The translations under genes were made by a program, and so were the position numbers. From contig VMGG01000003.1 of assembly GCA_007376425.1 (NCBI GenBank), positions 1-33,279 on the forward strand: DNA of 33,279 nt, in the 5' to 3' direction. Positions 12,976 through 33,175 of the stretch are shown here, piece after piece. The stretch comes from Parcubacteria group bacterium Gr01-1014_2. GTDB taxonomy: Bacteria; Patescibacteriota; Minisyncoccia; 2-02-FULL-40-12. Below the pieces are notes generated by a model. It ran no database searches. It saw only the letters and a program-made list of their open reading frames with translations, and was not told the origin of the DNA. Numbering within the stretch: position 1 is the stretch's first letter; each line of letters starts with the position of its first letter.

Positions 12976-14148
12976 ATGGCTAAGGTTTTAATTGATGAAG
13001 TAAAAATTCAAGAGCTTTTAACCAGAGGGGTGGAGAATATTTATCCAAACAAAGAGTTTTTGGAACAGAAGCTTAAAGACGGAGCAGAGCTTAGGGTTTA
13101 TTTAGGCATTGACCCGACTGGGCCAGACCTTCATTTAGGCCATTCGGTCCAGCTTCTAACCCTTAAAAGGTTTCAAGACTTAGGCCATAAAACAATTTTA
13201 GTGGTTGGCGATTTTACTGCTCGGGTTGGTGATCCTAGCGGACGAGACCAAAGAAGAATTCCTTTGACTGAAGAGCAGGTAGAAGAAAATGAAAAAAAAT
13301 ATAAAGAGCAGATAGGGAAAGTCCTAGACCTAAAAAAAACTGAAATTCGCCATAATGGTGATTGGCTCGGAAAGTTTAGGTTTGAAAATGTTTTGGAGCT
13401 GGCTTCTAAAAAAACAGTCCAGCAGCTGTTAGATCGAGATATGTTCCAGAAAAGAATTGAAAAAGGGGAACCGATTGGAGCTAATGAATTTTTATATCCC
13501 TTAATGCAGGGTTATGATTCAGTGGCCTTAGAAGTAGACGGTGAACTCGGAGCGACTGACCAGACATTTAATATGCTGGTTGGCCGTGATTTAGAAAGGG
13601 GCTATCTTAATAAAGAAAAATTCGTATTAGCAACCCGGCTTTTGGTTAACCCAAAAACAGGCGAAAAGATGATGTCTAAAACCGCAGGTAATTATATTTC
13701 TCTTCGGGCTTCTCCTATAGAAATGTATTCTGGGGTTATGGCTCTACCCGATGAAGCGGTTTTTGAAATGTTTGAATTATGCACCGAAGTTCCCATGGGG
13801 AAGATAAGTGTTTTAAAATCAGAGAGTATTCTGAAAGCCAAACAAGACTTGGCCTTTGAGATTGCGAAAATATACCACGGAGAAAAAGAAGCCGAAAAGG
13901 CCAAAGATGAATGGAGCAGGGTTTTTTCAAAAGGAGAATATCCCAGCGAAATGGAACAAGTGGAAAGGAGAAGATTAGTTGAACTTGTTGGGATAGTGAC
14001 GCAGGATAGTTCCAGTTCTGCCAAGATATTAATAGACCAGGGGGCTGTCAGGGTTAACGGAGAGGTGAGAAAGGAATGGAATTTTATGCCTGAAGCAGGA
14101 GATATTATTCAAATCGGCCCGCGAAAATTCGTCAAAGTAAAGAAGTAA
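12976..14148 (+). CDS. tyrS: Tyrosyl-tRNA synthetase
   Basis: GIDPTGPDLHLGHSVQL, GADQTFN-like GATDQTFNML, KMMSKT, C-terminal S4 domain. Confidence 0.93.
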   Translation: MAKVLIDEVKIQELLTRGVENIYPNKEFLEQKLKDGAELRVYLGIDPTGPDLHLGHSVQLLTLKRFQDLGHKTILVVGDFTARVGDPSGRDQRRIPLTEEQVEENEKKYKEQIGKVLDLKKTEIRHNGDWLGKFRFENVLELASKKTVQQLLDRDMFQKRIEKGEPIGANEFLYPLMQGYDSVALEVDGELGATDQTFNMLVGRDLERGYLNKEKFVLATRLLVNPKTGEKMMSKTAGNYISLRASPIEMYSGVMALPDEAVFEMFELCTEVPMGKISVLKSESILKAKQDLAFEIAKIYHGEKEAEKAKDEWSRVFSKGEYPSEMEQVERRRLVELVGIVTQDSSSSAKILIDQGAVRVNGEVRKEWNFMPEAGDIIQIGPRKFVKVKK

Positions 14149-14178
14149 ACCCCCACACTCATGCATGAGTGTGGGGGT
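14149..14178. repeat. 30-bp palindrome, copy 1
   Basis: ACCCCCACACTCATGCATGAGTGTGGGGGT, perfect palindrome directly after the tyrS stop codon. Confidence 0.9.
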
Positions 14179-19150: not shown

Positions 19151-20371
19151 ATGCTGTTAGACATCAAACAATTTGGTTCGGCTATAAAACAGATTGCCGA
19201 AGAAAAAGGAATCAGCGAACAAAAAATCATAGAAACAATTGATGCGGCTATCGCTTCGGCTTACAAAAAGGATTACGGGAAAAAGGGCCAGATAATTAGA
19301 GCCAAGCTAGACTCTCAAAGCGGCCGGATTTTAGTCTGGCAAGTTAAGTACGTGGTTGAGGGAGTCGATGACGAAGGGTACATTACTGGTTTTGTCATTA
19401 AGAGGGAAGACGAAGCTCCTTTTATTAAAACTTCAGAGGACGATGAGACTGGGGATTTTAAAATAAAATTTAATACGGAAAAGCACATCCTTCTTAAAGA
19501 GGCTCAAAAAATAAATCGTGAATTAAAGCCGGGCGACGAACTAACTTTGCCTTTGGAGGAAAAAGCTGATTTCGGAAGAATTGCCGCTCAAACCGCCAAG
19601 CAGGTAATTGTTCAAAGGCTGCGTGAAGCCGAGAGAGAGTCGATCGCCGATGAATATAGAAAAATGGTCGGCACTTTGGTCAGTGGGCTAGTTCAAAGAA
19701 GAGAAGGGCGGGCAGTTTATTTGGATATTGGAAGAACCCTGGGCCTTTTGCCATTTTTAGAGCAAAGCCCCCTTGATAACTATTCGGTTGGCCAGAGATT
19801 CAGAATTTTGATTCTGTCAGTCGATGAAACGCCGAAAGGCCCAATGGTTATTTTGTCTCGTTCTCACCCCAGGCTTCTAGAAAAACTTTTTGAATTGGAG
19901 GTGCCGGAAATTTCAGCCGGGTCGGTTTTAGTCAAAGGCGTCAGCCGCGAGGCCGGTGCTCGTTCAAAAATTGCGGTGGTTTCAAAAGAATCCCATGTTG
20001 ATCCGATCGGCTCCCTAGTGGGGCAGAAAGGCATAAGAGTTCAGACGGTCATTAATGAGCTTTCCGGCGAAAAAATAGACATTATTGAATGGTCAGAAGA
20101 TTCGTCAAAGTTTATCGCTAATGCTCTTTCGCCGGCTAAAGTAGTTGATGTTAAAGTTTTAAACCAAAACAAAAAACACGCTTTAGTGGAAGTGGCTGAA
20201 GACCAGTTTTCTTTAGCCATCGGCAAACGGGGCCAGAATGTTCGCTTGGCCGCTAAATTAGTCGGCTGGAAAATAGATGTTCGTTCACCCAAAGAAGAGA
20301 TGAAAGCCGAGGAAGTTGAAAAGACAACCGAACAACTGACGACTGACGACAAACAATTAGTCGTAAAGTGA
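19151..20371 (+). CDS. nusA: Transcription termination/antitermination factor NusA
   Basis: N-terminal domain, S1 region, KH motifs DPIGSLVGQKGIRVQTVINELSGEKIDIIEW and SLAIGKRGQNVRLAAKL. Confidence 0.95.
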   Translation: MLLDIKQFGSAIKQIAEEKGISEQKIIETIDAAIASAYKKDYGKKGQIIRAKLDSQSGRILVWQVKYVVEGVDDEGYITGFVIKREDEAPFIKTSEDDETGDFKIKFNTEKHILLKEAQKINRELKPGDELTLPLEEKADFGRIAAQTAKQVIVQRLREAERESIADEYRKMVGTLVSGLVQRREGRAVYLDIGRTLGLLPFLEQSPLDNYSVGQRFRILILSVDETPKGPMVILSRSHPRLLEKLFELEVPEISAGSVLVKGVSREAGARSKIAVVSKESHVDPIGSLVGQKGIRVQTVINELSGEKIDIIEWSEDSSKFIANALSPAKVVDVKVLNQNKKHALVEVAEDQFSLAIGKRGQNVRLAAKLVGWKIDVRSPKEEMKAEEVEKTTEQLTTDDKQLVVK

Positions 20372-21414
20372 ATTACAATATTAAGAAAATTAAACCATAT
20401 GAATTAGAACTTCTGGTGATTTTAGATAAGGCCGATCTGGATAATTATATTTCAGAAGCCCAGAAGCATTTAGCCAATGACTTAAAAATTAAAGGCTTTA
20501 GGCCGGGAAAGTCCCGACTTTGTCGAGGATCCTCGATGGCTCCGCCATCGGGAGTTCCGCCCGAATTGGCCAAAGACAAGCTGGATAAAAAAGAAGTTCT
20601 GGAAACCGCTTTTGATTTTGCTTTCAAACAGAGTTTTTCCGATGTTTTAATTAAGGAGAAATTTGATTTGATTAATGCCGGCAAATTCGAGATTAAAGAG
20701 AATTCGGCCCAGAAGCTTTGCTATGCTGTGTTACTCACAGTTTTTCCAGAATTCAAAGTCGGGAATTATAAAAATATCAAAGTTAGTAAAAAAATTACTT
20801 TAGTTTCTCCGGAAGAAATCGATAAAACTATAGAGTTTATAAGGACTTCAAAAAAAGTTAATGGAGCCCTCCCCGAATTAAATGATGACTTTGCAAAAAG
20901 TTTAGGCCGTTTTGAAAACTTAGGGCAATTAAGAGAAAGCATCGGCAATGGATTGAGAGAAGAAAAAGAAATAAAAGAAAACCAGAGAGTCCAGTCGTCG
21001 ATCTTAGATAAAATCGCTGGAAGCACAAAAATTGAAATCCCGCCAATCCTGATTGACCGTCAGCTTGACCAAATGATGCTTGATCTTGATGCTGATTTGC
21101 ATCGAGAGGGCTTGGAACTCGGTTTATTTTTAGCCAAAATAAAAAAGACCAGCGATGAGTTAAGAAACGAGTGGAGGCCAAAAGCAGAGAATTTAGTTAA
21201 GAAAGCCTTGATTCTTAAAGAAATAGCTAAAAAGGAAGATATTAAAGTTGAAGCCGGCGAAATAAAAGAAAAAATAAGCCAATTTGTCCAAAATTTCGGC
21301 ACCACTGAAGAAGCTGAAAAGAGTATTGATTTGCCAAAATTGTCTGATCAGATTCAGCAGATTTTACTTAACCAAAAGGTTTTAGCGTTTTTAGAGAGAG
21401 AAGCCAGAGATTAA
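20368..21414 (+). CDS. tig: Trigger factor without an evident FKBP/PPIase domain
   Basis: LKIKGFRPGK...VPPELAK, VLETAFDFAFKQSF, C-terminal domain; overlaps the nusA stop by 4 nt (GTG start). Confidence 0.88.
   Translation: MNYNIKKIKPYELELLVILDKADLDNYISEAQKHLANDLKIKGFRPGKSRLCRGSSMAPPSGVPPELAKDKLDKKEVLETAFDFAFKQSFSDVLIKEKFDLINAGKFEIKENSAQKLCYAVLLTVFPEFKVGNYKNIKVSKKITLVSPEEIDKTIEFIRTSKKVNGALPELNDDFAKSLGRFENLGQLRESIGNGLREEKEIKENQRVQSSILDKIAGSTKIEIPPILIDRQLDQMMLDLDADLHREGLELGLFLAKIKKTSDELRNEWRPKAENLVKKALILKEIAKKEDIKVEAGEIKEKISQFVQNFGTTEEAEKSIDLPKLSDQIQQILLNQKVLAFLEREARD
20512..20553. repeat. 42-nt palindromic element inserted in frame in tig
   Basis: TCCCGACTTTGTCGAGGATCCTCGATGGCTCCGCCATCGGGA; 14 codons (SRLCRGSSMAPPSG); related element at 23440-23494. 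Confidence 0.8.
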
Positions 21415-21436
21415 TTGAGTGTTTGTGTGTTTCTTT

Positions 21437-21466
21437 ACCCCCACACTCATGCATGAGTGTGGGGGT
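21437..21466. repeat. 30-bp palindrome, copy 2
   Basis: ACCCCCACACTCATGCATGAGTGTGGGGGT, identical to copy 1, 22 nt after the tig stop, followed by a T-rich tail. Confidence 0.9.
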
Positions 21467-21595
21467 TTACTTTTTTTCCGATTTTTGATATTCTATATAT
21501 TAGGTCTAGGTAATTTTGGAATAAACATCTAAGTCCATTTAAGAAAGAAAGCAGCCCGGTGGCGCTTCCTTACTCTCTCATGAACTTAATAAAAA

Positions 21596-25864: not shown

Positions 25865-25923
25865 CTATTTTAATTAGTAAGCCTTTCTTTAATGGCTCAA
25901 CGCGTTGAACCATTAAACTTTAG

Positions 25924-31325: not shown

Positions 31326-31355
31326 ACCCCCACACTCATGTATGAGTGTGGGGGT
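31326..31355. repeat. 30-bp palindrome, copy 3
   Basis: ACCCCCACACTCATGTATGAGTGTGGGGGT (one central C>T change); abuts the stop codon of the 31355-31831 gene. Confidence 0.9.
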
Positions 31356-31831
31356 CAAGTCTGGGCCTTTTTAAAAGGCCAGAGGATTTTCAGCATTTTT
31401 ATACCCGGTTTTGCCGAAATAATTAGAAAGATGACCCCCAAAAATATGAGGAGGCCATCATAGCCCCATCGGACGAGTTCATCATCACGAAGCCGGAGCC
31501 ACATTCCAAACTCATCCAAAGCCAAACCAAGACCAAAACCATGAAGCAAAGAGATAGGGTACTTGGCTTCTGGATCATCAAAGAGAAGGGACAAATAGCC
31601 GGAAACTGCCAAAACAAAAAAACCATAAGCGAAATGGTGGATATGGACTTCGCCAACCACTAAGAAAAGATTAGGGAAGAGATGACTGATAAGCCTGGAA
31701 ACGCCGAAGGTAAGAAGAAAAGAAACGGCAATTGGAAAGATGAGATAAAAATAAAGCCCTGATTTTTGGGTTTCTACTTTTTCGCTGATTATTTTCTCGC
31801 GGGTTATTTTTGAAAAAAATTCAAGAAACAT
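31355..31831 (-). CDS. Conserved-looking multi-pass membrane protein
   Basis: 4 TM segments with HIHHFAYGFF and GFGLGLALDEFGMWLRLRDDE. Confidence 0.6.
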   Translation of the reverse strand: MFLEFFSKITREKIISEKVETQKSGLYFYLIFPIAVSFLLTFGVSRLISHLFPNLFLVVGEVHIHHFAYGFFVLAVSGYLSLLFDDPEAKYPISLLHGFGLGLALDEFGMWLRLRDDELVRWGYDGLLIFLGVIFLIISAKPGIKMLKILWPFKKAQT

Positions 31832-33060: not shown

Positions 33061-33175
33061 CCGCCGCCGCTCGCTAACGCTCACCGCCAAGCAAAATACT
33101 CTTTACAATTTGCGATTTGCGCGCAAAAGGAAAAGAGTATTTTGCTTGGCTCTGCTCTGAACGAGCAGGCGGCGG
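33061..33175. repeat. Large imperfect hairpin/inverted repeat
   Basis: Inner 19-bp perfect arms GCCAAGCAAAATACTCTTT (33086-33104) / AAAGAGTATTTTGCTTGGC (33132-33150); outer arms CCGCCGCCGCTCG / CGAGCAGGCGGCGG. Confidence 0.75.

Follow-up and report, generated by a model that had tools for sequence, protein, structure and literature searches.

Three short palindromes in one stretch of bacterial DNA (the window, 33,279 nucleotides; contig C21 of G000, a Patescibacteria genome of 545 kb that is ~90% complete) were found to be insertions enclosed by 4-bp direct repeats. We consider it probable that they are minimal non-autonomous insertion elements that are mobilised in trans by GIY-YIG nucleases and represent the smallest members of their family. 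A broader reading, to which we give an even chance, is that the family forms a new class of DNA transposable element in Patescibacteria. A GIY-YIG protein of ~84 residues would here replace the transposase, produce 4-bp YNNR target-site duplications (TSDs), and mobilise a 28-bp element in trans. Insertion would reach essential protein genes, 16S rRNA and the P3 region of RNase P RNA, the hairpin keeping the host RNA functional.

Palindromes and their flanking duplications

The palindromes were located where the original prediction had placed them, at 14149 and 21437 (identical) and at 31326 (a single central change), and no match occurred in 100 dinucleotide-preserving shuffles of the window. 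The first two neighbouring genes had been correctly named (Table 1). The repeat itself was confirmed and its length was revised from 30 to 28 bp: the repeated unit is CCCCCACACTCAT..ATGAGTGTGGGGG, and the outer A/T pair of the 30-mer lies outside it. At the three window copies this pair is part of 4-bp direct repeats that differ from copy to copy; at other family copies it is G..C or mismatched. A protein-binding site with an ATGCAT core had also been proposed and was not borne out, as the core varies (ATGTAT, ATATAT, ATTTTT, ATTTTAT, AACGAAAGTT and others) and the 11-bp arms are conserved. The flanks are direct repeats, whereas the arms of a terminator should produce A/T tracts in inverted orientation; the arrangement carries the signature of target-site duplication, and the 4-bp repeats are target-site duplications. 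No Rfam family matched the window palindromes, and weak Rfam sRNA matches at locus L001 were far under gathering scores. The window also contains a 30-bp near-palindrome at 25888-25917 (TTTAATGGCTCAACGCGTTGAACCATTAAA) and a hairpin with 29-bp arms at 33086-33150, both outside the CCCC family.

Table 1 Positions of the elements, their duplications and adjoining or interrupted genes (window coordinates unless a contig is given)
Feature	Location	Strand	Remark
28-bp palindromic insertion element, copy 1	14150..14177	.	perfect palindrome
Copy 1 left TSD TAAA	14146..14149	.	includes tyrS stop codon TAA 14146-14148
Copy 1 right TSD TAAA	14178..14181	.	
28-bp palindromic insertion element, copy 2	21438..21465	.	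23 bp past tig
Copy 2 left TSD TTTA	21434..21437	.	
Copy 2 right TSD TTTA	21466..21469	.	T-rich tail begins here
28-bp palindromic insertion element, copy 3	31327..31354	.	one central change, ATGTAT
Copy 3 left TSD TCAA	31323..31326	.	
Copy 3 right TSD TCAA	31355..31358	.	31355-31357 = TGA stop, minus-strand ORF 31355-31831
tyrS (tyrosine--tRNA ligase)	12976..14148	+	adjoins copy 1; TIGR00234
tig (trigger factor)	20368..21414	+	upstream of copy 2; TIGR00115
G000 rnpB (L031)	C2:16-677	minus	
GIY-YIG element in G000 rnpB P3	C2:382-658		277 bp; repeat CCCCGTGAGATAA
33-bp palindrome in G000 rnpB	C2:129-161		related CCCGTGAGATA arms
28-bp palindrome in G000 rnpB	C2:47-74		
Ddl insertion in G000			71 bp + CTAG; in frame
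TsaC insertion in G000			71 bp + CCTG; in frame
GAPDH insertion in G000			29 bp + 4; in frame
ZnuC-like ABC ATPase insertion in G000			29 bp + 4; in frame
RsmA insertion in G000			28 bp, net about 33; in frame
ParB homologue insertion in G000			in frame

The genome-wide count in G000 gave six copies within 3 mismatches and ~23 related elements when longer, variant and sister families were included. The start of contig C3 and the end of contig C17 of genome G003 overlap at a palindrome, which suggests that assemblies break at such repeats; counts from draft assemblies are approximate. When 84,980 species were scanned for exact occurrences, the 22-bp stem matched 17 DNA stretches (12 in Yanofskybacteria, 2 in Falkowbacteria, 1 each in Azambacteria and Nomurabacteria, and 1 chance actinobacterial match). 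Two candidate members, from Kytococcus (L071) and from a single viral contig (L317), were rejected as unrelated or chance matches with inverted flanks and without a TSD.

Exact 4-bp flanking duplications were present at 24 of 43 distinct Patescibacteria members, compared with a mean of 2.0 and a maximum of 9 in 10,000 shuffles of the right flank. All 24 fit YNNR (pyrimidine first, purine last); the boundary rule allowed no C ahead of the element and no G behind it, and the excess of YNNR over chance consists in the missing A at the first and T at the last position. Among the 19 members without a perfect 4-bp duplication, 6 are one base off and 7 share 2 bp, a class that is suggested and not significant (shuffle mean 3.8, maximum 10). 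Most of the 43 members measure from 28 bp to 294 bp, and the size classes comprise 28-bp palindromes, 59-148-bp hairpins and 272-318-bp elements enclosing one GIY-YIG gene. The 28-bp element, made of two inverted repeats only, is possibly the smallest mobile DNA having a target-site duplication.

An unrestricted inverted-repeat scan of G000 was too noisy (17 TSD-like matches; control mean 6.8, maximum 17), which was resolved by restriction to C-started arms: 11 of 51 such repeats had a 4-bp duplication (shuffle mean 0.54, maximum 4 in 5,000). Sister families in the same genome show duplications TGGG, CCTG and CCCG (CCCCTCACTTG) and TTCA (CCCCCACACCATAACAAGGA). Sister palindromes of these two families, with their own 4-bp duplications, were observed at C31:2778-2925, C30:15830-15900, C32:4355-4423 and C2:3382-3407. 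At C27:1101-1283, inverted repeats with arms of 19 bp (TTAGAGATGGTTTCAAAAC) delimit a 183-bp element that has the direct repeat CTAC and is possibly an unrelated mobile element.

The palindromes could alternatively be conserved bidirectional terminators or RNA 3'-end stabilisers whose likeness is kept by selection or gene conversion. The three window copies do lie at gene ends, the palindrome folds into a strong hairpin (-22.9 kcal/mol), and copy 2, its TTTA duplication and the ensuing T-run also read as an intrinsic terminator on the plus strand. As originally stated, a clear T-run directly follows the stem only at this copy on the plus strand; copy 1 has a T-run on the opposite strand. A terminator-like hairpin had likewise been reported after copy 3; the hairpin beside this copy lies inside the minus-strand gene and not 3' of it, and a separate terminator-like hairpin occurs ~40 nt further on the minus strand (31287-31274). 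We regard this alternative as very unlikely, because it leaves unexplained the variable direct repeats, the in-frame copies in six ORFs, the copy in RNase P RNA, the uninterrupted sites of a relative and the nuclease gene in longer members. The earlier view that simple conserved termination is insufficient was therefore upheld on the evidence of the direct repeats and of the coding and rnpB copies. Termination or stabilisation is contradicted as a general account; all that is left of it is a subsidiary function at some copies, where 3'-end stabilisation could hold as a by-product.

Placement at gene 3' ends, originally noted for the three window copies, holds for these and fails as a property of the family: judged by the refuting condition set beforehand, placement relative to stop codons, the G000 copies extend into ORFs and rnpB. 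Under the insertion-element reading, stop codons supply YNNR targets (TAAA, TTGA) and the duplication restores the stop, which would account for the copies adjoining stop codons. The tig copy would have inserted at TTTA ahead of T residues and so would also work as an intrinsic terminator, a secondary or accidental property.

A REP-like dispersed element had been suggested, and this was right in that the palindrome is dispersed and mobile. Movement by a Y1 (IS200/IS605-like) transposase, as in REP/RAYT systems, would suit the size, the palindromy and the dispersed intergenic placement and is nevertheless extremely unlikely. The Y1 domain PF01797 was not found in the ~90%-complete G000, in which positive controls scored. 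A fixed tag of the GTAG/CGTC type is absent, the flanks being variable YNNR sequences equal on both sides; the targets are duplicated, whereas Y1 insertion makes no duplication; and the partner gene is GIY-YIG.

Insertions in protein and RNA genes

Members of the family lie in frame in six G000 ORFs, encoding Ddl, TsaC, GAPDH, RsmA, a ZnuC-like ATPase and a ParB homologue. A 29-bp variant (CCCCCACACTCATACATGAGTGGTGGGGG), one base over the standard element, occurs in both the ABC ATPase and GAPDH; together with the 4-bp duplication it amounts to 33 bp and keeps the reading frame. The predicted inserted peptide of GAPDH is PPHSYMSGGG. The same-genus genome G001 is uninterrupted at all five loci compared (Ddl, TsaC, GAPDH, RsmA and rnpB, none of which is a window copy). 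The TsaC site, for instance, reads GTTTGGCCCGGCC in G001 and GTTTGGCCTG, the 71 bp and then CCTGGCC in G000. At the level of sequence, with one genome compared per species, insertion with a 4-bp duplication is well established.

The RNase P RNA gene of G000 (Rfam RF00010) contains a 28-bp copy close to its 3' end, which in our reading has the 3' strand of P2 on one side and that of P4 on the other (P19 region); the site reads GACTGCACAAATACAGAA in G001 and GACTGCATATA, the 28 bp and CGAAACAGAA in G000. A diverged related palindrome (GCCACACTCATTCATGAGTGATGAGGGC) was observed at the same rnpB position in another genome (G009, L200). In G000, a GIY-YIG element is preceded by P1 (TTGGTAAATC/GATTTACCAA) and the P2 5' strand and is followed directly by the GAGGAAAGTCC core. 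The repeats of this element would pair as the P3 stem, and P3 in G001 is an ordinary hairpin. The gene fell under the gathering cut-off in the first Rfam scan because it is interrupted. In three more genomes (L146, L302, L305), GIY-YIG elements likewise immediately precede this rnpB core, and those at L294 and L298, with inverted repeats, lie in or beside 16S rRNA. Element ends coincide with terminal inverted repeats (TIRs), and the interior is just the GIY-YIG ORF. A group I or group II intron with a GIY-YIG homing endonuclease was rejected, no intron family match being found around the rnpB or 16S rRNA elements.

Many GIY-YIG genes were also observed directly 5' of tRNA genes (L145, L148, L149, L161, L167, L169, L170, L293, L295, L307, L308, L315), and the tRNA 5' end is partly repeated on the far side of some of them, e.g. 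L145 and L148.

GIY-YIG genes and a proposed mechanism

A full-length element (G003:C24:46797-47090) consists of a 20-bp perfect TIR (CCCCCACACTCACAAGGTTT) around a single 84-aa ORF, which matches PF01541 GIY-YIG (E=1e-16). The predicted cognate hairpin repeat of this protein is CCCCCACACTCA, and a non-cognate one would be, e.g., CCCCGTGAGATAA. The core residues Y5, Y16, G18, R26, H30 and E50 are invariant, and the nearest solved structure is 1ZG2 UPF0213. Single-domain GIY-YIG genes are widespread: in the order 40 of 45 genomes have them, and in the phylum 207 of 287. Tight inverted repeats (score of at least 11) bracket 29 of 70 GIY-YIG genes in the order (41%) versus 7 of 567 control ORFs, all from G000 (1.2%), and 12 of 28 among the best-scoring loci examined in the phylum search; ~60% of the genes are without bracketing repeats at the sensitivity used. 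Duplications of 4 bp flank 10 of 41 bracketed elements (shuffle mean 1.2, maximum 6 in 5,000), and nine of the ten fit YNNR. Arm sequences differ among the elements (CCCCCACAC.., CCCCCTCAC.., CCCTCACACC.., TCCCRCACATAA.., CCCCGCACC.., CCRGGTAGTGAAA..), and the repeat sequence tracks protein identity (Mantel rho 0.58, reached by 0 of 2000 permutations, best permuted 0.22), a co-variation that simple co-inheritance would also produce.

A half-site census of G000 and the order revealed that half-sites pair only over short distances, bar a few isolated single half-sites. GIY-YIG was the only ORF found between paired repeats, with no transposase gene there and no CCCCCACACTC repeats at transposase-gene spacing. 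A long insertion sequence (IS) with the ends of the palindrome was thereby rejected, the census yielding short elements only. These results bear on the possibility that the palindromes are classical MITEs, i.e. non-autonomous relics of IS encoding a DDE transposase, with GIY-YIG genes as frequent passengers inside the repeats. The combination of TIRs and 4-bp TSDs is classically the mark of DDE transposition, and this origin is still unlikely given the outcome of the census, the overlap of GIY-YIG start or stop codons with TIRs, the co-variation of repeats with the nuclease, and the bracketing of 41-43% of GIY-YIG genes in genomes from throughout the phylum.

The 90%-complete G000 contains no GIY-YIG gene having exactly the CCCCCACACTC repeat, and its own one uses CCCCGTGAGATAA; the cognate enzyme is thus missing or lost there. 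A shortened GIY-YIG gene of ~72 aa, without the middle segment and without visible bracketing repeats, was observed at C11:4169-4384, directly after an apparent nusG 3' end.

We infer that mobility is driven by the GIY-YIG nuclease and propose the following course for its chemistry. The element would insert at a short YNNR target and leave a 4-bp duplication. The full-length members (272-318 bp), with inverted repeats enclosing one gene for the ~84-aa protein, would be autonomous; the 59-148-bp hairpins and the bare 28-bp palindrome would be derivatives moved in trans. The nuclease may recognise the inverted-repeat hairpin, probably as extruded or single-stranded DNA, and cut both the base of the element and the YNNR target, leaving a 4-nt stagger, after which the host would finish insertion by ligation and fill-in. 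Copies would survive where the hairpin is tolerated: after stop codons, in RNA loops and, in frame, in protein surface loops. Characterised GIY-YIG enzymes leave 3' overhangs shorter than 4 nt, and to our knowledge none integrates DNA.

The findings suggest that ultra-small bacteria harbour a family of mobile elements whose movement is driven by a nuclease in place of a classical transposase. If the nuclease alone suffices, 84 aa and 28 bp would constitute a very small insertion machine. Such elements would offer a route by which streamlined 0.5-Mb genomes gain extra peptides (Ddl, TsaC, GAPDH, RsmA) and extra RNase P RNA helices. They would also supply a definite partner enzyme, open to testing, for palindromes whose dispersal is otherwise unexplained, including palindromic peptides within ORFs and non-intron GIY-YIG inserts in CPR rRNA genes.

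Comparison with known systems

In Neisseria, the GIY-YIG single-strand nuclease Ssn is matched to a multi-copy repeat (NTS) and acts in DNA uptake. The present palindromes could similarly be cleavage or regulatory sites of a cellular nuclease whose spread would owe more to selection on the sites than to selfish mobility, since a GIY-YIG protein of a single domain, its catalytic residues (Y, Y-x-G, R, H, E) conserved, is again paired with many dispersed matching repeats. We judge this quite unlikely, because the gene here lies between repeats that form TIRs and are accompanied by TSDs, and the derived 28-bp palindromes inserted in frame in ORFs, together with placement in rnpB and 16S rRNA, look element-like. 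Cellular site use and mobile elements are compatible, and both can be true.

The mobile elements proposed here resemble REP/RAYT systems in their pairing of small, scattered palindromes with a matching small protein of the nuclease type, and differ in that Y1 was not found in G000, the target is variable and duplicated in place of a fixed tag, and autonomous copies have TIRs. The small dispersed repeats of cyanobacteria ('very small mobile repeated elements') are mobile at 20-30 bp; the likeness lies in this very small size and the difference in sequence and hosts, and we know of no GIY-YIG partner for them. No published description of an element such as ours was found in the literature searched, most subscription papers lying outside its scope.

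Prokaryotic MITEs (RUP, SPRITE, Correia, ERIC) share TIRs, TSDs (here exact at 24 of 43 members) and non-coding hairpins with the present family, and a terminator-like by-product, as here, has been proposed for SPRITE (PMC10969869). Our elements are far smaller, the whole element being two 14-bp repeats. An element with the same ends as the palindromes exists, and the gene in this candidate autonomous partner is for a GIY-YIG nuclease and not for a DDE transposase; the census found no transposase gene between repeats. Rickettsia palindromic elements (RPE) of about 150 bp also lie in frame inside housekeeping ORFs and elsewhere (PMC10969869). In-frame insertion into unrelated ORFs is common to both (six ORFs here, with uninterrupted homologues for four); compared by description and not by sequence, the present family differs in its 28-bp minimum, its longer non-coding members of 59-148 bp, its 4-bp TSDs and its candidate mobilising nuclease.

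A comparable setting is that of a 2024 study of CPR rRNA inserts, in which GIY-YIG inserts fit neither group I nor group II introns and were unexplained by homing; most inserts lay at the tips or bases of stem-loops, and the terms 'inverted repeat' and 'palindrom' are absent from the text of that paper (PMC11270868). The organisms are the same, and the GIY-YIG inserts likewise fall outside the intron classes. We offer the present elements as an explanation for these inserts.
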